A DNA stretch of 34,761 nt from Thermoflexus hugenholtzii JAD2 (lineage in GTDB: Bacteria > Chloroflexota > Anaerolineae > Thermoflexales > Thermoflexaceae), in the NCBI RefSeq assembly GCF_900187885.1, contig NZ_FYEK01000010.1:1-34761 (forward strand). Reading direction: 5' to 3'. The position numbers and the translations under genes are program-made. Position 1 is the first letter of the stretch, and the number at the start of each line of letters is the position of its first letter. This document shows positions 8,930-34,761 of the stretch, in pieces. Under the pieces are notes generated by a model, which had not been told where the DNA came from, ran no database searches, and saw nothing but the letters and a program-made list of their open reading frames with translations.

Positions 8930-9023
8930 GCCATTGGGCCTTGAACCATGGGGGAAGCCTGGACGGGGCTTGCGGAGGGGTTTTCCTTCAGATTCTCCCG
9001 CAGGCGGCGGATCACGAAGAACC
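8930..9023 (-). pseudogene. Relic of an OmpR-type response regulator 3' end
   Basis: Bases 8972-9012 match 11652-11692, inside the 3' end of the intact response regulator gene, at 38 of 41 positions and in the same orientation. Translated, the relic reads IRRLRENLKENPSAS against IRHLREKLEENPSAP in the wing of the intact winged-helix domain. Similarity fades on both sides, with weak matches possibly reaching 8930. No start or full domain remains. It sits between the VapC gene and the kinase operon promoter, so it may mark where the original regulator-kinase junction was broken, or be the remains of a second regulator. Confidence 0.7.
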
Positions 9024-9057
9024 GGGGATACTGGCTCTCCAGGCGAAGCGTATGCCT

Positions 9058-9570
9058 CTAAGGCAGAGGGGCATTGGCGATCCAGTGGCGCTGTATGCCC
9101 GGCACACGATCGAAATCCCGGTCGTCAGAGGCAATCGCGGGGACGTTCAGGCGATCCATGATAGCGACGTGGAGAGCGTCCCGAGGCAGCAGTCCGTATC
9201 GGGAAGCGTGGTGCAGGAAACGATATGCATCCTCCGTCTCCACACCGACGAGATGCACGTTAGGCAAACGAAGTAGCATCTCAATAGCCCTGCGAATTGG
9301 CGGCGCGTGACGTCTTACCAGCCCTGCAGGATCCTGGCGTAACCCTGTGAGAGGATGCTGGCCTTCCTGTTCGCGAATGCGTGCTAACAGCAAGCGGTAA
9401 AACAGTTCATCCAGGACAGGAACCCCTACCAGGGCGGCAATCTCTCCCTTAATGACGCGCTCCAGGAAAGAGCGAACAACCGCCAGATATCGTCGGTCAG
9501 AACGGAGATACATGTACCACACATTGGTGTCCACATAGACAGGGCCGGGAGGGACCTCATCGAGCCTCAT
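9058..9570 (-). CDS. vapC: PIN-domain ribonuclease toxin, VapC-like
   Basis: A 170-residue PIN-domain protein, expected to cleave RNA using a Mg/Mn-bound acidic cluster. Acidic positions are visible in VYVDTNVW (Asp 14), VPVLDELFYRLL, LLPRDALHVAIM and IASDDRDFDRV. Start ATG 9570 overlaps the upstream antitoxin gene by 14 bases, typical translational coupling of toxin to antitoxin. It is somewhat longer than usual VapC (about 130-150), with an insert near residues 70-95. It lies within the segment that separates the response regulator from its kinase. Confidence 0.88.
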   Translation of the reverse strand: MRLDEVPPGPVYVDTNVWYMYLRSDRRYLAVVRSFLERVIKGEIAALVGVPVLDELFYRLLLARIREQEGQHPLTGLRQDPAGLVRRHAPPIRRAIEMLLRLPNVHLVGVETEDAYRFLHHASRYGLLPRDALHVAIMDRLNVPAIASDDRDFDRVPGIQRHWIANAPLP

Positions 9571-9802
9571 AAAAGCCCCCAACTTCGAGGTCGAAGTCGT
9601 AAAACTCAAAGGGTTCTTCCCCCAGACATCCGGCCAGTTCATCCAGCGTCTGATAAGGATCAGTCGGCTCTTCTGGAAGGATGGAAATCTCCCCCTTCCG
9701 CACAACAAGACGCAACCGTTTGCCCAGGAGAGCTTCGTCCAGCAGCTCTCGAGGCAATATAAGCGCCCCTTCCGCCTCCACCGTCAGCTCCCGCTCCGTC
9801 AT
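9557..9802 (-). CDS. vapB: AbrB-type antitoxin, VapB-like
   Basis: An 81-residue small protein whose N-terminal half (ELTVEAEGALILPRELLDEALLGKRLRLVVRKGEI) fits a swapped-hairpin AbrB/MazE DNA-binding fold. The C-terminal half has PYQTLDELAGCLGEE and an acidic, aromatic tail FEFYDFDLEVGGFYEAR that would wrap the toxin. ATG 9802 follows GGAGG by 8 bases; an upstream in-frame ATG at 9823 is less likely. It would neutralise the downstream PIN toxin and repress its own promoter. Confidence 0.8.
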   Translation of the reverse strand: MTERELTVEAEGALILPRELLDEALLGKRLRLVVRKGEISILPEEPTDPYQTLDELAGCLGEEPFEFYDFDLEVGGFYEAR

Positions 9803-9872
9803 GGGAATCACCTCCCGGCCCATTTCCGCCTACATGGTTTTCTGATTTCGACGTTTCCCTCATCACGCCCGC

Positions 9873-9900
9873 ATGATAGTTTTTACCATAGGATGCTCAA
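9873..9900 (-). promoter_or_regulatory. Sigma70-type promoter of the first VapBC pair
   Basis: Reading leftward, a -35 TTGAGC (9895-9900), a 16-base spacer and a -10 TATCAT (9873-9878) lie about 70 bases before the antitoxin start at 9802. The surrounding DNA is clearly more AT-rich than its neighbours. The rest of 9803-10120 contains no gene I can support; it should include the right boundary of the TnpB element. Confidence 0.55.
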
Positions 9901-10118
9901 GCCTCACAATCCCCACCCATCATCTCCGCTGCACACGCCTCGTCCGAATCGAGTCCTCCTCGGACTGCGCCACCGTCAGGCCGCCAGCGCCCTGCGCACC
10001 ACCGACGTGCGGCAACCGTCGATATCGTCCGTGCTTCCCCCTTCCTGGAAGCCCTATTACACCGACCGTCTGCATCTCTTTACCGGGAGACTGCCGTTCC
10101 GCAGCACATCGTCATTTA

Positions 10119-10300
10119 TTTCACCCCGAAGGGCGAAACAAACGACCGGCGGCTTCCTGCTTCAACGACCCGTAGCTCGTAGACCGGCTCATAGCCGTTC
10201 CGCCGCCAGAGGGATCTGGGGCACCCCAGCCGGTCTTCGACCGGCTGGGGACCCCGCGACAGGCGTGACTTCCCGGAGAACTCCCGGTAGGGCCTTTCAG
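10119..10300 (-). ncRNA. Probable omega-RNA (guide RNA) of TnpB, overlapping the tnpB 3' end
   Basis: TnpB genes of IS200/IS605 type carry an overlapping guide RNA at their 3' end. Here, minus-strand GTTGAAGCAGGAAGC (10152-10166) matches the conserved box near omega-RNA 3' ends as I recall it. It is followed by a hairpin at 10119-10138 with a TTCG tetraloop (TTTCGCCC/GGGTGAAA, one G-T pair). Further upstream a 12-bp perfect stem with a 3-base loop lies at 10224-10250. The 5' end is a guess. The guide would be read from the flank just below 10119, so it depends on the exact element boundary. Confidence 0.6.
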
Positions 10301-12316: not shown

Positions 12317-13162
12317 TCATTCAGAGGCTCCCCGCCCGCTGGGGACCAGGCGGACGATCAAGAACAGGATGGTGGCGGTGAGGACGATGGCCGCCCCGGA
12401 GGCGACGCCGGCGTAATACGAGGCATAGAGCCCCACCACAGCCGACAGCGCGGCCAAGAGGACGGCCAGGGCCATCATGGCCGGCAACCGCCGGGTCATC
12501 AGATACGCCGTCGCCGCCGGGGTCACCAGCATCGCCACCATCAGGGCCACGCCCACCGTCTGCAGCGCCACCACCACCGTGATGGCGATCAAAACCCGCA
12601 ACAGGTTGTCGAAGAAAGCGGCCGGCAGCCGGAGGGTGACCGCCAGGATGGGATCAAACGAGACCACCAGGAATTCTTTATAGAAGAAAAAGACCAGGGC
12701 GGCCACCAGGGCGGCGAAGATCGCCAGGCGGATGAGATCCCCTTCCCCCACCCCCAGCACATCCCCGAAGAGGAGATGGGTGAGGTCCACGGCGTAGCTG
12801 CGGGAGGTGGAGATCAGGACCACCCCCAAGGCCATGGCGCCGGCGAACAGGATCCCGATGGCGGTGTCCTCTTTGAGTCGCCCTCCCCGGCTGAGGGTGC
12901 CGATGACCAGGGCGGCCAGGAGGGCGGTCCCCAGCCCCCACCAGAACAGGTGGGCGCGGGAGCCGCCGCTGAGCAGGTAGCCGATGGCCAGGCCGGGCAG
13001 GATGGAATGGGCCAGGGCGTCCCCGAAGAAGGCCATCCCGCGGAGCACCACATAGGTGCCCACCAGGGCGCAGAGCCCGCCCGCCACCACCGCCGCGATC
13101 AGGCCCCGCACCATGAACGCGTATCGCAGCGGGTCCAGGAGAACCCCCATGATCTCGCTCAC
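12317..13162 (-). CDS. Metal-ion ABC transporter permease (ZnuB/MntB family)
   Basis: A 281-residue ABC-3 family membrane protein with about eight hydrophobic helices. Family signatures include YAFMVRGLIAAVVAGGLCALVGTYVVLRGMAFFGDALAHSILPGLA (first 55 residues), KEDTAIGILF and VGVALMVAMLVTPAATAYLMT. GTG 13162 is the preferred start: GGAGG lies 8 bases before it and it begins 4 bases after the ATPase stop; an ATG at 13150 is the alternative. It forms the membrane channel for the lipoprotein and ATPase encoded just upstream. The response regulator gene follows after 18 bases. Confidence 0.95.
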   Translation of the reverse strand: MSEIMGVLLDPLRYAFMVRGLIAAVVAGGLCALVGTYVVLRGMAFFGDALAHSILPGLAIGYLLSGGSRAHLFWWGLGTALLAALVIGTLSRGGRLKEDTAIGILFAGAMALGVVLISTSRSYAVDLTHLLFGDVLGVGEGDLIRLAIFAALVAALVFFFYKEFLVVSFDPILAVTLRLPAAFFDNLLRVLIAITVVVALQTVGVALMVAMLVTPAATAYLMTRRLPAMMALAVLLAALSAVVGLYASYYAGVASGAAIVLTATILFLIVRLVPSGRGASE

Positions 13163-13166
13163 CGTC

Positions 13167-14000
13167 TCACCCTCCCTCACAACAAGTATCCCCGACCACG
13201 ATCAGCTCCTCTCCCACGCGGATCAGGCGCAGGTGGCCGCCGTAGGCGGCCTGCAGGGCCTGCGGGGTGAGGATCTCCTCGGGAGGGCCGAAGGCGATCC
13301 GCCGTCGGTTCAGCAGCAGCACGCGATCGAAGTAAGACGCGGCCTGATCCAGATCGTGGGTGGTGAGCAGGACGGTGACTCCCTGCCGGCGCAGGCGCTC
13401 CAGGATCTCCAGGATCCCCTGCTGGGCGGGCAGGTCCAGCCCGGTGAAGGGCTCATCCATTAGCAGCAACTCGGCCTCCTGGGCCAGGGCCCGGGCGATG
13501 AACATGCGCTGCTGTTGACCCCCGGAGAGGGCCCGGATGGGACGTTCGGCCAGCTCCGCGATGCCCACCTCCTCCAGCGCGCGGCGGACGATCTCCCAAT
13601 CCCGCGGCCCGGGATGGCGGAACAACCCCATCTTGCCCACCCGCCCCATCATCACCACATCGGCCACGGTGAGGGGGAAGTTCCAGTCCACCTGGTTCCG
13701 CTGGGGGATGTAGGCGATGCACAGGTGACCGTGGGGGCCGTGGCCGTAGATCCGCACCGATCCGGCGGTGGGGGTCAGCACCCCGGCGATGATCTTCAGC
13801 AACGTGCTCTTGCCCGCGCCGTTGGGCCCCACGATGGCGATCCGCTCGCCCGCCTCCACCGTGAAGGAGACGTCCTCCAGGGCCACCACGCCATCATAGT
13901 GCATGGAGACCCCGGAGACCTCCAGGATCGGCAGGCCGGGGGAATGCCGCGCCTCCCATCCCTGCCGGGTAACCTTCCGCCACAGATTCACCAGCGCCAT
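13167..14000 (-). CDS. Metal-ion ABC transporter ATP-binding protein
   Basis: A 277-residue ATPase with Walker A GPNGAGKST, Q-loop YIPQRNQVDWNFPLTVADVV, signature [15 protein letters not shown], Walker B LLLMDEPFTGLD and H-loop LTTHD. The PQRNQVDWNFP stretch is characteristic of the zinc/manganese/iron chelate-type uptake ATPases (ZnuC, MntA/SitB, TroB). ATG 14000 follows GGAGGGAGC. Upstream by 30 bases is the substrate-binding lipoprotein gene; downstream the permease gene starts within 5 bases of the stop. The three genes make a complete importer. Confidence 0.95.
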   Translation of the reverse strand: MALVNLWRKVTRQGWEARHSPGLPILEVSGVSMHYDGVVALEDVSFTVEAGERIAIVGPNGAGKSTLLKIIAGVLTPTAGSVRIYGHGPHGHLCIAYIPQRNQVDWNFPLTVADVVMMGRVGKMGLFRHPGPRDWEIVRRALEEVGIAELAERPIRALSGGQQQRMFIARALAQEAELLLMDEPFTGLDLPAQQGILEILERLRRQGVTVLLTTHDLDQAASYFDRVLLLNRRRIAFGPPEEILTPQALQAAYGGHLRLIRVGEELIVVGDTCCEGG

Positions 14001-14030
14001 CGCTCCCTCCAGAAGAGGATACCGACCGGT

Positions 14031-15011
14031 TCAGCGCAGGGCCTCCACGATGCGGCGGACGTTGATGCGCATCATCCCGATGTAAGAATCCGCCTCGCTC
14101 CCCGGCTCGCCCAGGGAGTCCACATACAGTCGCACCAGGCGCGTCCCGGTGTCCCCCGCCACCCGTCGGGCCAGGGCGGGGTCCACCGTGCTGCTGACGA
14201 AGATGGCCTTCACGCCCAGGGCCCGGATGGCCTCCTCCAGGGCGGCCAGCTCCTGAGGGGAAGGCTGGGCGGTGGTGGTGACCCCCGGGAGGATCGTCCC
14301 CACCTGCTCGAAGCCGTAGCGGTGGGCGAAGTATCCGAAGACCTGGTGCTCCGTGACCAGCTTGCGGTTCTCCGGCGGGATCTGCGCCACCTGATCCCGG
14401 ATCCAGGCGTCCAGCTCCCGCAACTGCGCCCGATAGGCCTCCGCGTTGCGGCGATATCGCTCCGACCGCGCCGGATCCAGCCGGCTCAGCGTTGCCTCAA
14501 TAGTGTGGGTCCAGGTGATCACGTTGAGGGGATCCAGCCAGACGTGCGGATCCCACGGCCCTTCATGCTTGTGGCCGTGATCTTCGTGTTCGTGGCCATG
14601 TTCAGATTCCTCTCCCTCCTCGCGATGGCCGGCGATCGCCTCGAAGGGCCGCAACGGGATCCCCTCCGCCAGCTCCACATACAGGGCCTTTCCCCCCGCG
14701 TTCTTCAAAAGAGGCTCCAGAAAGGCCTCCAGGCCGGCCCCGACGGCGAAGATCACGTCGGCCTCCGCCACCCGGGCGACATCCTGCGGGCTGGGCTCAA
14801 AGGCGTGGGGGTCCGCCCCCACGGGCAACAAAACCGTCACCTGAACCCCCTCGCCGCCGATCTGGCGCACCACATCCCCCACGATGGAGGTAGTGGCCAC
14901 CACCGCAAGGGGACGGGCGCCGGGAGCCACGGAAGGCGCCCCTCCGACCGGGGCGCAGGCCGTCAGCCACACCATCACAGGCAGGAAAACCCGCCATCCT
15001 CGAAGCGCCAT
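14031..15011 (-). CDS. Zinc/manganese ABC transporter substrate-binding lipoprotein (ZnuA/TroA-like)
   Basis: A 326-residue cluster A-1 metal-binding lipoprotein. The lipobox is LTAC (Cys 19). Likely metal ligands are His 69 (GADPHAFEPSP), His 156 (DPHVWLDP), His 222 (TEHQVFGYF) and an Asp in the YVDSLGEPGSEAD region. His rather than Glu at the third site is the zinc-type arrangement, and a His/Glu-rich loop (138-149, HGHEHEDHGHKH) is a typical ZnuA feature; zinc is therefore the favoured ion. ATG 15011 follows AAGGAG by 5 bases. Longer in-frame extension upstream overlaps the regulator gene and is not coding. It lies 17 bases after the Fur-family gene and heads the transporter genes. Confidence 0.93.
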   Translation of the reverse strand: MALRGWRVFLPVMVWLTACAPVGGAPSVAPGARPLAVVATTSIVGDVVRQIGGEGVQVTVLLPVGADPHAFEPSPQDVARVAEADVIFAVGAGLEAFLEPLLKNAGGKALYVELAEGIPLRPFEAIAGHREEGEESEHGHEHEDHGHKHEGPWDPHVWLDPLNVITWTHTIEATLSRLDPARSERYRRNAEAYRAQLRELDAWIRDQVAQIPPENRKLVTEHQVFGYFAHRYGFEQVGTILPGVTTTAQPSPQELAALEEAIRALGVKAIFVSSTVDPALARRVAGDTGTRLVRLYVDSLGEPGSEADSYIGMMRINVRRIVEALR

Positions 15012-30679: not shown

Positions 30680-32233
30680 ATGTCATCCCATCCTGTCCAT
30701 GATGCCATCGCGGTGCTGGACTTCGGCTCCCAGTATGCGCAGCTGATCGTCCGCCGCATCCGGGAGATCGGCGTCTACGCCGAGCTGTTCCCGTGGGACG
30801 CGGACCCCGCCGAGGTCCTCGCCCTGCGGCCGAAGGGCTTCGTCCTCTCGGGCGGTCCGGCCAGCGTCTACGAGCCCGGCGCTCCCTCGCTTCCCCCTTA
30901 CGTCCTGGAGAGCGGCCGGCCGGTGCTGGGGATCTGCTACGGGATGCAGCTGCTGGCCCACGCCCTGGGTGGGCGGGTCGCCCCCGCCCCGGCCCGGGAA
31001 TACGGTCGGGCGGAGGTGGAGATCCTGGAGCCGGAGGATCCCCTCTGGCACGGATTGCCCTCCCCCATGACCGTCTGGATGTCCCACGGGGACCGGGTGG
31101 AGGTCCTCCCGCCCGGCTTCCGGGCGATGGCCCGCTCCCCCAACGCCCCTTTCGCGGCCATCGGTGACCCGGCCCGCCGCCTCTACGGCGTGCAGTTCCA
31201 CCCCGAGGTCGCCCACACCCCCCTGGGCCGGGAGCTGCTGCGCCGCTTCGCCGTGGCCCTGTGCGGCGGTCGGCCCACCTGGACCCCCCGGGCGATCGCC
31301 GAGGAGCAGATCGCGCGGATCCGGGAGCGGGTGGGCGGGGAACGCGTGCTCTGCGCCGTCTCGGGGGGCGTGGACTCCACGGTGACGGCGGTGCTGGTCC
31401 ATCGGGCGGTGGGGGCGCAGCTGCAATGCCTCTTCGTGGACACCGGGCTGCTGCGCAAGGGGGAAGGGGAGGAGGTGGTGGCCGCCCTGCGGGCCCTGGG
31501 GCTGCCGGTGGCTGCGGTGAACGCCGCCGAGGCCTTCCTGGAGGCCCTGCGGGGGGTCACTGACCCCGAGGAGAAGCGGGTGCGGATCGGCCACACCTTC
31601 ATCGCCGTCTTCGCCGAGCACGCCCGTCGGCTGGGCCCCTTCCGATTCCTGGCCCAGGGCACCCTCTACCCCGACGTCATCGAGAGCCGGGCGCCGGAGC
31701 GGCGGGCGGCCGCCCGGATCAAGACCCACCACAACGTCGGCGGGCTTCCCCCCGATCTCTCCTTCGAGCTCATTGAGCCCCTGCGGTATCTCTTCAAGGA
31801 TGAGGTTCGCGCCCTGGGGGCGCATCTGGGGATCCCGGAGGCCCTGCTGCGCCGGCAGCCCTTCCCCGGCCCCGGGCTGGCCGTGCGCTGCGTCGGGGAG
31901 GTCACCTGGGAGCGGCTGGAACGGTTGCGGGCCGCCGACGCCATCGTGCAGGAGGAGCTGGCCCGCTCCGGATGGGCCGAGCGGGCCGCCCAGGCCTTCG
32001 CGGTGCTGCTGCCGGTGCGCAGCGTGGGCGTGATGGGGGACGCCCGGACCTACGAGGAGGTGGTGGTGGTGCGGGCGGTGGCCACCGAGGACTTCATGAC
32101 CGCCAACTGGGTCCCCCTGCCCCACGAGCTGCTGGACCGCATCGCCACGCGGATCGTGAACGAGGTCCCCGGGGTGAACCGGGTGCTGTATGACATCACG
32201 AACAAACCCCCCGCCACCATCGAGTGGGAATGA
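30680..32233 (+). CDS. guaA: GMP synthase (glutamine-hydrolysing)
   Basis: A 517-residue enzyme converting XMP to GMP with glutamine and ATP. The class I amidotransferase domain has nucleophile Cys 86 in GICYGMQLL and His 174/Glu 176 in VQFHPEV. The ATP pyrophosphatase domain has the PP-loop SGGVDS (228-233). The C-terminal dimerisation domain shows [12 protein letters not shown] and ends [10 protein letters not shown], the standard GuaA terminus. Length and motifs are typical. ATG 30680 has a modest AGAGG site. It is monocistronic here, with no gene facing it until the CHAT partner gene at 32333. Confidence 0.98.
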
Positions 32234-32332: not shown

Positions 32333-33151
32333 TTATCCCGCCAGGGGGATGCTCTCACGCTTCTCCCACGCCCGCTCCTTAGGCCCCACGGGGATGCTAA
32401 AGAGGCGGGCCTGGAGGTTGCCCTCGCCCAACACAGCCAGGCGCACCTGGCCGCATCCCGGCGGCTGCTCCACGATCATCCAGAAGTGATACACCCCCAG
32501 GATGGGCTTCTCTTTGGCCCGCAGTTCCCAGTAAGGGGCCCGCTCCTCCTCGCCGAAGAATCCCAGCGTCACCGGCGTGACCTGCCCCACGTGCAGGTCT
32601 GCGCTGAGCTTGCCGAGCTGCGTCCCTACTATTCCAGCTTTTAACCCCAAGCCGGCCTCTACCCGAACGGTGGTCGGTCCGCCCTCATAGAGGCGCTGCG
32701 GATAGAGGTCCAGCAGACGGGGCTGGGCGCTGCTCCCCGGAGAGAAGAGGTAGGCCCGGCACCAGGCCTCGGTGTAGGCCCAGCCTGCCTCTCGCGCTTC
32801 CGGGAGAACGTCAAACTCGATGCCCAGCCGCACCAGGTAGAGCTTTCCCTGTGCCAGAGCGCCTGGCGGCAGTCCACTCGGGGCGGTCTGTAAATGGGCC
32901 GCCTCCTCCGGGGCCAGCAGACAGTAGCGGGGATAATGCACCCGCAGGACGCCCCGGGCCCTCTCCTCAACGTATCGTCGGATGGCAGCGGCCTTGTCCT
33001 CCGCCCGTTGCAACGCCGCCAGGTCCAGGCTTTTCTCTTCCGCCAGACGGCGCTCATCCCGGGCGGCCAGTTTTTCCAGCCCTTTGGCCGTCTCCTCCAC
33101 CATCGCCTCCGGCGGGAGCAGAGGTTCTTCAAACCAGATTTCTTCGTTCAC
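32333..33151 (-). CDS. Uncharacterised partner of a CHAT protease
   Basis: A 272-residue cytoplasmic protein of unknown family. Residues about 15-70 form a charged helical region (EAMVEETAKGLEKLAARDER). The rest looks mainly beta-stranded (VLRVHYPRYCLLAPEEA, GKLYLVRLGIEFDVLPEA, GGPTTVRVEAGLGLKAGIVG, PILGVYHFWMIVEQPPGCG) and there is no signal peptide or clear membrane helix. GTG 33151 follows GGAGG by 7 bases; that GGAGG overlaps the end of the CHAT gene (stop at 33156), so the two are translationally coupled. CHAT proteases often sit next to the protein they activate by cleavage, which makes this a candidate substrate or regulator; that is inference. Confidence 0.7.
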   Translation of the reverse strand: MNEEIWFEEPLLPPEAMVEETAKGLEKLAARDERRLAEEKSLDLAALQRAEDKAAAIRRYVEERARGVLRVHYPRYCLLAPEEAAHLQTAPSGLPPGALAQGKLYLVRLGIEFDVLPEAREAGWAYTEAWCRAYLFSPGSSAQPRLLDLYPQRLYEGGPTTVRVEAGLGLKAGIVGTQLGKLSADLHVGQVTPVTLGFFGEEERAPYWELRAKEKPILGVYHFWMIVEQPPGCGQVRLAVLGEGNLQARLFSIPVGPKERAWEKRESIPLAG

Positions 33152-33155
33152 CTCA

Positions 33156-34761
33156 TTACCTCCAATCGCCGATCAGGATGAAAGGAGCCCAGTAGTAAGG
33201 GTCTGAAGGATCGAAGTGCTCCGTAGGGGACAGGAGTTCTCCGTTGCGCAGCGCCAGGGTGGCCTGCCGCAGCGCGGTGGCTTTATCCGTCTTCTTGTGG
33301 CCGCCCTTGTCCCACAGCCGGCGGTAGAAATCCACCATCAGGGAAGCGGTGGTCCAAGCGTTCACCGACCACAGCCCCACCAGCAGCGAGGAGGCCCCGG
33401 CGTAGAGGAGCGCCTGGCTCAATCCGGCCAGTTCGTCCCCCGCCAGGCGACCGCTCAGCCCCGTCTCGCAGGCGCTCAGGGTGACCAGATCGGCGCGCAG
33501 GTGGAGTTCCATCCACTGGCGGGCGGTGAAGAGGCCATCGGCCAGCAGGACGCCGGAGCGCAGGGGGTCTTCCCGATCAAAGGAACCGTGACAAGAGAGA
33601 TGGACCAGGCGCAAGGTCCGATCGCTCAGGACCTCCCGCAGCCGCTCGGCGGTGGCCTCCTGGTCCAGGAGCGCCTTCACCCCCATCTGTGCTGCCACCG
33701 ACTGCGCCTCGCCCAGGAAGAGCTGTCGTTCCACCTGCCCCTGCTGCGTTGTGGGATCGGCGGGGGTGTAGCCCACCACGACCGCCTCCCCTTGGGCGAT
33801 AGGCCCCCGCCGCCATTGTCGCTCCAGCAACCCCAGGGCGGGGATGTAGGAGAGGGCGTAGCGATCCAGGAGCGTTTCCCCCTCCCCGTTCAGCTCCAGG
33901 GCGTGGAGAGGCAGCAGGTGGAACAGGCTTTCAGGTGCAATCACCAGATGGGTGACGCCCTCCAGGTAAGGGAGCACGGGGGAGAGGAGGGGCCGGCCCA
34001 GGCCGCGCCAGCGGTGGGTGAGCGGCCGCCCTGCCTGAAGATGGCGGCGCCGGTTGAGCACCTCATCCGCATAGTTAGCAAGGTAAACATAGCGCAGTTC
34101 ATCGGGGGCAAGAGACACCTCTACGCTTTGAGGGCGCTCCCATCCGGCCCGCAGGACGAAGAGCAGGATGCGCTCGCCGGTGGTGAAGAGGGAGAGCAGC
34201 GCCGTTTGAGGGCCGAGGGCTTCAGCCAGGCGGACCAGACCCTCCCAGGAGGGGCGATCGCCGCGGCGCAGGGCCACGTAGTCGGAGGCCTGGGAACCAT
34301 AGCCCTCCATCTTTTGCCAGACGACCTGCAGTTGATCCACAAGGGCCTGCCGTTGTTGCAGGTGAGCCAAGCGGGTGACCCCCTCTTCGGCGGTCGCGGC
34401 CTGGCCGTGGCGGGACAGGGCGGCGGCGTCCAGGGCATTGAGGCGACTGGCCAGGGCGCGCTCTTGCGCCACCAGTTCGGCGGGGAGGACATCCGGGGCG
34501 GGAAGGTCGCCGCGGCTGAGCAGCGTCGTGAGGAGGCGGGATTTGGAGCCTTCGGCGATGGCGAAGGCCAGGGCCGGCCGTGCGGCGCGATGGCAGGCCT
34601 CCACCGCGCGGGCATAAAGGCCAGCCCACTCTTCTTGCAAGCCCAGTTGGGCAGCCACCGAGGCGGAGAGGAAGAAGCGATCGATCATTCCCAGCGCCTC
34701 CTGATAGGCGGCGATCGCCCGCTCCAAATTCGCCTCCCGATCCCGCACTTCCGCCAGACGC
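33156..34761 (-). CDS. TPR-CHAT domain caspase-like protease (partial)
   Basis: The frame is open to the right window edge, so the N-terminus is missing; residues are counted from the GTG at 34748. The visible start (ANLERAIAAYQEALGMID, CHRAARPALAFAIAEGSKSR) is helical repeat of TPR type. The CHAT domain occupies about 240-530, with catalytic His 387 in LVHLSCHGSF and Cys 427 in VTLSACETGL, then GLSQALLYAGASSLLVGLWSV. The dyad is intact. CHAT proteins are caspase/separase relatives that cleave a partner when a sensor domain is triggered, for example in type III-E CRISPR (Csx29) and gasdermin systems. No CRISPR array or gasdermin motif is seen here; the partner gene is at 32333. Confidence 0.92.
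   Translation of the reverse strand, partial: RLAEVRDREANLERAIAAYQEALGMIDRFFLSASVAAQLGLQEEWAGLYARAVEACHRAARPALAFAIAEGSKSRLLTTLLSRGDLPAPDVLPAELVAQERALASRLNALDAAALSRHGQAATAEEGVTRLAHLQQRQALVDQLQVVWQKMEGYGSQASDYVALRRGDRPSWEGLVRLAEALGPQTALLSLFTTGERILLFVLRAGWERPQSVEVSLAPDELRYVYLANYADEVLNRRRHLQAGRPLTHRWRGLGRPLLSPVLPYLEGVTHLVIAPESLFHLLPLHALELNGEGETLLDRYALSYIPALGLLERQWRRGPIAQGEAVVVGYTPADPTTQQGQVERQLFLGEAQSVAAQMGVKALLDQEATAERLREVLSDRTLRLVHLSCHGSFDREDPLRSGVLLADGLFTARQWMELHLRADLVTLSACETGLSGRLAGDELAGLSQALLYAGASSLLVGLWSVNAWTTASLMVDFYRRLWDKGGHKKTDKATALRQATLALRNGELLSPTEHFDPSDPYYWAPFILIGDWR

Follow-up and report, generated by a model that had tools for sequence, protein, structure and literature searches.

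Gene organization at the right end of the window

A pair of leftwards transcribed genes, a CHAT protease gene and a smaller gene that we refer to as the partner, occupies the rightmost part of the window (the whole 34,761-nucleotide stretch of Thermoflexus hugenholtzii JAD2 DNA that was analysed). Their features are as follows:

32333..33151, minus strand: partner gene, 272 amino acids, GTG start, of an undescribed family (open reading frame, alignment, no database match)
33156..34760, minus strand: CHAT protease gene, 3′ part, 534 codons (open reading frame and CHAT domain match)
33159..33163, minus strand: GGAGG, probable ribosome binding site of the partner, within the end of the CHAT coding region (sequence)
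33165..34001, minus strand: CHAT domain PF12770 (Pfam match)
33468..33470, minus strand: catalytic-type Cys codon in LSACETG (alignment with the Csx29 ACET motif)
33588..33590, minus strand: catalytic-type His codon in HLSCHG (alignment with the Csx29 CHG motif)

On its Pfam score (E = 1.4e-56, 192.5 bits against a curated cut-off of 24), the larger reading frame is a member of the CHAT protease family PF12770, and a putative protease; its His and Cys residues line up with the CHG and ACET motifs in Csx29 chains from the PDB, and the intact dyad reported in the preliminary description is thus borne out. The reading frame is open at its 5′ end because the contig stops at 34761. TPR-like helices had also been proposed ahead of the CHAT domain; these give no Pfam score in the truncated window gene, but TPR repeats do score in its relatives, including the G545 protein and others, some of which have an N-terminal CpXC domain. 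The full-length relatives in G414 (1308 amino acids) and G545 (1154 amino acids) have CpXC at the N-terminus and CHAT at the C-terminus, and the complete window gene is therefore most likely a CpXC-TPR-CHAT gene, with the TPR repeats and CpXC domain probably encoded in the 5′ part beyond the contig end. A search for this part among the other contigs of the genome gave just a weak match to the CpXC region, on contig C54. In one genome of the same genus (G001) one contig end carries a CpXC-TPR beginning and another a TPR-CHAT terminus, which suggests that the TPR repeats break assemblies at CHAT genes.

The junction between the CHAT stop and the partner start reads, 5′ to 3′, GGCGATTGGAGGTAATGAGGTGAACGAA. 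Four bases separate the TAA of the CHAT gene from the GTG of the partner, and GGAGG falls within the final CHAT codons, so that the close coupling of the two genes noted previously holds. To the left of the partner is guaA (GMP synthase, assigned from sequence; 30680-32233), which is convergent with the pair, and there is therefore no additional same-strand gene after the partner in the window.

The partner family

The partner is a genuine protein family that matches nothing in the databases used. Pfam, NCBIfam, PADLOC, PHROGs and the PDB gave no match for the window protein, in agreement with the earlier view that it contains no known domain, and it belongs to no housekeeping family that these would reveal; scans of 20 relatives (Pfam, PADLOC, PDB) were likewise without a match. 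As a single-sequence query it retrieved no relatives from the genome and viral contigs, and profiles were needed. The first profile search returned genuine relatives in G152, G414, G411 and G394; most other matches, at E values of 0.001 to 0.1, were short stretches in unrelated frames and were dropped. Iterated profile searches gave matches in 17 of the 396 genomes from the same class and in 8 of 400 from the phylum as a whole, both counts including the window genome itself, and a plasmid search added one relative. The phage searches yielded no relative, and the viral match L049 is spurious, corresponding to a phage portal-like gene. The total is 21 genes at 20 loci that are intact or nearly so, in Chloroflexota and on one Paraburkholderia plasmid. 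The partner is thus rare and, as described below, mostly found beside a CHAT gene, rather than widespread without one.

Several members are atypical. None of the own-genus genomes searched contains an intact partner, and one of them (G003), which has no CHAT gene, contains a decayed fragment of the Ktedonobacter type (L097, about 9510-9611; PSWDY...WMHLLVKAP). The G152 gene (L032, about 8971-9290) is frameshifted near codon 50, through either mutation or an assembly error, and G050 (L095, 1354-3176) has two diverged tandem copies with a glycosidase-like gene alongside and no CHAT gene nearby.

The partner proteins consist of a variable, helical N-terminal segment of about 70 residues and a conserved, predicted beta-rich core (about residues 70-272), which in the alignment of 20 sequences begins at about residue 74. 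For this layout, proposed before from the sequence, there is agreement with two low-confidence AlphaFold2 models only (pLDDT 35.5 and 39.6), which are unusable for assigning a fold. Residues P74, P151 and W208 are invariant in the alignment, and R108, P168, G200 and G219 are nearly so; these are Pro, Trp, Arg and Gly residues with no visible catalytic set, and the partner is most likely a non-enzymatic protein of the proposed cassette. No clear transmembrane segment was found, and the alignment contains no conserved cleavage-site motif.

By these sequence tests the partner is recognisable neither as Csx30 nor as a gasdermin. A gasdermin-like pore former that has diverged past sequence recognition would fit with the position next to a CHAT protease, since bacterial gasdermin operons typically hold caspase-like or CHAT proteases (PMC9612521), and several strands are present in the low-confidence models. 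Nonetheless, a profile of 20 partner sequences matches no PDB chain at E values up to 10, no gasdermin match emerged from Pfam or PADLOC, and 19 of the 20 members lack an N-terminal Cys (L094, with Cys7, is the exception, and in the window protein Cys does not occur until residue 77). Most bacterial gasdermins have a conserved palmitoylated Cys (PMC9079055), and we consider a hidden gasdermin to be very unlikely.

Association of the partner with CHAT genes

The partner lies immediately downstream of a TPR-CHAT gene at 14 of the 20 loci, in Anaerolineae, Ktedonobacter and Paraburkholderia, with a gap of 1 to 5 nt at five of these and of up to 529 nt elsewhere. At two further loci (L047 and L093) it adjoins, and precedes, a CHAT-NB-ARC gene. 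In L094 it comes after an NB-ARC-type gene with a truncated N-terminus, in L087 it is at a contig end, and in L048 and L095 there is no CHAT gene nearby, both genomes having CHAT genes elsewhere. The solo partner in L048 (G359; 9614-10273) is 2.8 kb from a gene (13036-14841) for a caspase-like protein with, as judged by eye, a formylglycine-enzyme-like domain. Fifteen loci with uncoupled CHAT genes, flanks included, contain no partner, not even a diverged copy, so that CHAT proteins in general do not need one. The TPR-CHAT gene of G001 (L099, 4297-6669), which has no partner, encodes a C-terminal cysteine-rich, metal-ribbon-like tail (CAEH...CPRCG) that is perhaps a fused replacement for it.

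The genes flanking the pair vary from genome to genome and are mostly ordinary housekeeping genes, and no third gene is common to the loci read; the pair thus behaves as a movable two-gene cassette. With regard to Cas7-11 (gRAMP), Csx30 and Csx31, the genes that accompany Csx29, these housekeeping neighbours are the view that the relatives offer, the upstream side of the window gene being beyond the contig. Two loci have defence-type neighbours. First, on the conjugative plasmid pBPHY02 of Paraburkholderia phymatum the pair, WP_012406444 and WP_012406445, directly follows a metallophosphoesterase-GASH-DO-GTPase1-GAP1-N1 conflict system. Secondly, AAA, McrBC and helicase genes come after the pair in G497. 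As an indication of a role in conflict these two neighbourhoods are thin.

Co-inheritance and divergence of the two genes

In a tree of 53 CHAT domains all nine coupled Anaerolineae domains with enough sequence for inclusion fall into one clade (support 0.99), with Ktedonobacter beside it and Paraburkholderia further out. Both CHAT-NB-ARC domains (L047 and L093) are in a distant part of the tree, so the association of partner and CHAT arose at least twice. The His/Cys dyad is retained in 15 of 16 coupled CHAT proteins; in the remaining one (L085, on a short draft contig) the Cys is replaced by Ser beside an intact partner. Pairwise distances of the CHAT and partner proteins are correlated (r = 0.77 over 55 pairs, with none of 10,000 permutations as high), a value to which shared species history contributes. 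The partner diverges faster than the CHAT protein, with, for example, the window and L033 sequences sharing 34% identity in the partner and 61% in CHAT.

The CHAT gene of K. racemifer (L034, 7528-8331) is a 268-codon in-frame remnant that lacks the TPRs and the first part of the CHAT domain and keeps the His and Cys; its K. robiniae counterpart is at L035, 8535-12476. K. racemifer has an intact partner with 92% identity to the K. robiniae protein, and a dN/dS of 0.12 between the two partners indicates constraint, although it does not date the K. racemifer CHAT deletion.

The proposal that the two genes just share an operon without working together, or were paired by chance in a single genome, draws on the solo partner genes of L048 and L095, and is contradicted by the other observations. 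The partner being directly downstream of CHAT in 13 genomes has a chance product of about 10^-41 (assuming about one gene per kb), the outer neighbours differ in each genome, and the monophyletic coupled clade is joined by a second, independent association with CHAT-NB-ARC; we give this explanation hardly any credence. A functional CHAT-partner pair that is conserved and co-inherited and keeps its dyad is well supported, and the dedicated protease-partner pair anticipated in the preliminary description is sustained by the adjacency at 14 TPR-CHAT and two CHAT-NB-ARC loci, the correlated divergence and the retained dyad; the more specific roles suggested there for the partner, a protease-activated effector or an inhibitor, are candidate roles.

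A possible role for the partner

Because both genes travel as a unit in many bacteria, the partner is very probably a dedicated target or helper of the CHAT protease. The contexts have CHAT (with TPR) in common, and from this we infer that the CHAT protein recognises the partner directly, by physical contact. Our preferred reading, to which we assign a probability of about 0.45, is that CHAT cleaves the partner as its substrate or effector in a two-gene conflict-type cassette; both the cleavage and a defensive outcome are guesses by analogy with known protease-substrate pairs. The first gene would encode a sensor-protease with a CpXC zinc-binding-type domain, TPR repeats and a CHAT caspase-like domain, and the dedicated partner would be made from the same message and recognised by it. 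A signal read by the CpXC/TPR part would switch on the CHAT domain, which would then cut the partner, and the cut partner would bring about a downstream response such as growth arrest, death or a regulatory switch. There is precedent in the cleavage of Csx30 by its CHAT neighbour Csx29 (PMC10028731) and of neighbouring bacterial gasdermins by caspase-like proteases (PMC9612521). The lack of a conserved cleavage motif is weak counter-evidence, because Craspases cut Csx30 at non-conserved sites (PMC11106740).

Other observations also count against the cleaved-substrate reading. First, the Cys-to-Ser CHAT of L085 with its intact partner leans slightly towards the adaptor role described below. Secondly, solo partners are present in L048 and L095, although both genomes have CHAT genes elsewhere. 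Thirdly, neither an effector-like domain nor a lipidation-type N-terminal Cys nor a membrane segment was found in the partner, and the neighbourhoods are mostly housekeeping.

Nearly as likely, and a serious contender at somewhat under even odds, is that the partner is an adaptor or regulator that keeps CHAT switched off, or that CHAT requires in order to become active and select its target, and that is itself uncut, with the substrate encoded elsewhere. The recurrence of the partner with two very different architectures, CpXC-TPR-CHAT and CHAT-NB-ARC, is as expected of a CHAT-binding subunit, and both its lack of effector-like features and the L085 dyad variant fit such a role. A precedent is CanB, a protein of unknown family that joins the caspase CanA in a soluble complex, the substrate of CanA being CanC (PMC12799240). 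However, the cassette contains no third conserved gene that could be the substrate, and the 15 uncoupled CHAT genes do without such a partner. Returning to cleavage, we speculate further that the partner may represent the first of a new class of effectors switched by proteolysis, of undescribed fold, with CpXC-TPR-CHAT proteins and, independently, CHAT-NB-ARC receptors as its activators, in an antiphage or cell-death module apart from Craspase and the gasdermins; this bolder version is rather improbable.

Comparison with known systems

The pair resembles Craspase (Csx29 plus Csx30, type III-E CRISPR) in having a TPR-CHAT protein that shares its CHG/ACET dyad motifs and, next to it, the gene for a non-enzymatic partner. 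The window CHAT is, by the curated model, not a Csx29, scoring 55.3 bits against a cut-off of 300, and the N-terminus of its relatives is CpXC-TPR; none of the loci read showed a gRAMP/Cas7-11 gene, with the contig end truncating the window on the upstream side of the pair, and the partner matches no Csx30-type model (NCBIfam, PDB). With the bacterial gasdermin systems the pair shares a two-gene arrangement of a caspase-like or CHAT protease and a cognate protein of about 240-280 amino acids. It departs from them in that the partner has no sequence match to gasdermins (PDB, Pfam, PADLOC; a diverged member could escape), the window protein has no N-terminal Cys, and the protease gene comes first at the TPR-CHAT loci here. 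The caspase-nuclease system Canu (CanABC) is similar in combining a caspase-like protease with a protein of unknown family, and in the TPRs of related loci, but no MBL-type nuclease gene is conserved in the CHAT-partner cassette. The GAP1-N1/DO-GTPase/GASH systems are conflict systems (Kaur 2020, PMC7159879) and are linked to the pair by its position directly after one on P. phymatum pBPHY02, a single locus; none of the Chloroflexota loci read contains such genes.

We conclude that the CHAT-partner module is real and, as far as the limited open-access literature extends, apparently undescribed, with substrate and adaptor roles for the partner both in play. To our knowledge, CHAT proteases are common and natural substrates are known for very few of them. 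The compact Chloroflexota pair, together with its distant relative on a sequenced Paraburkholderia plasmid, constitutes a directly testable protease-partner system, and the partner is an undescribed protein family whose structure could be solved. If the partner is cut, it would represent another kind of CHAT/caspase-like target besides Csx30 and the gasdermins.
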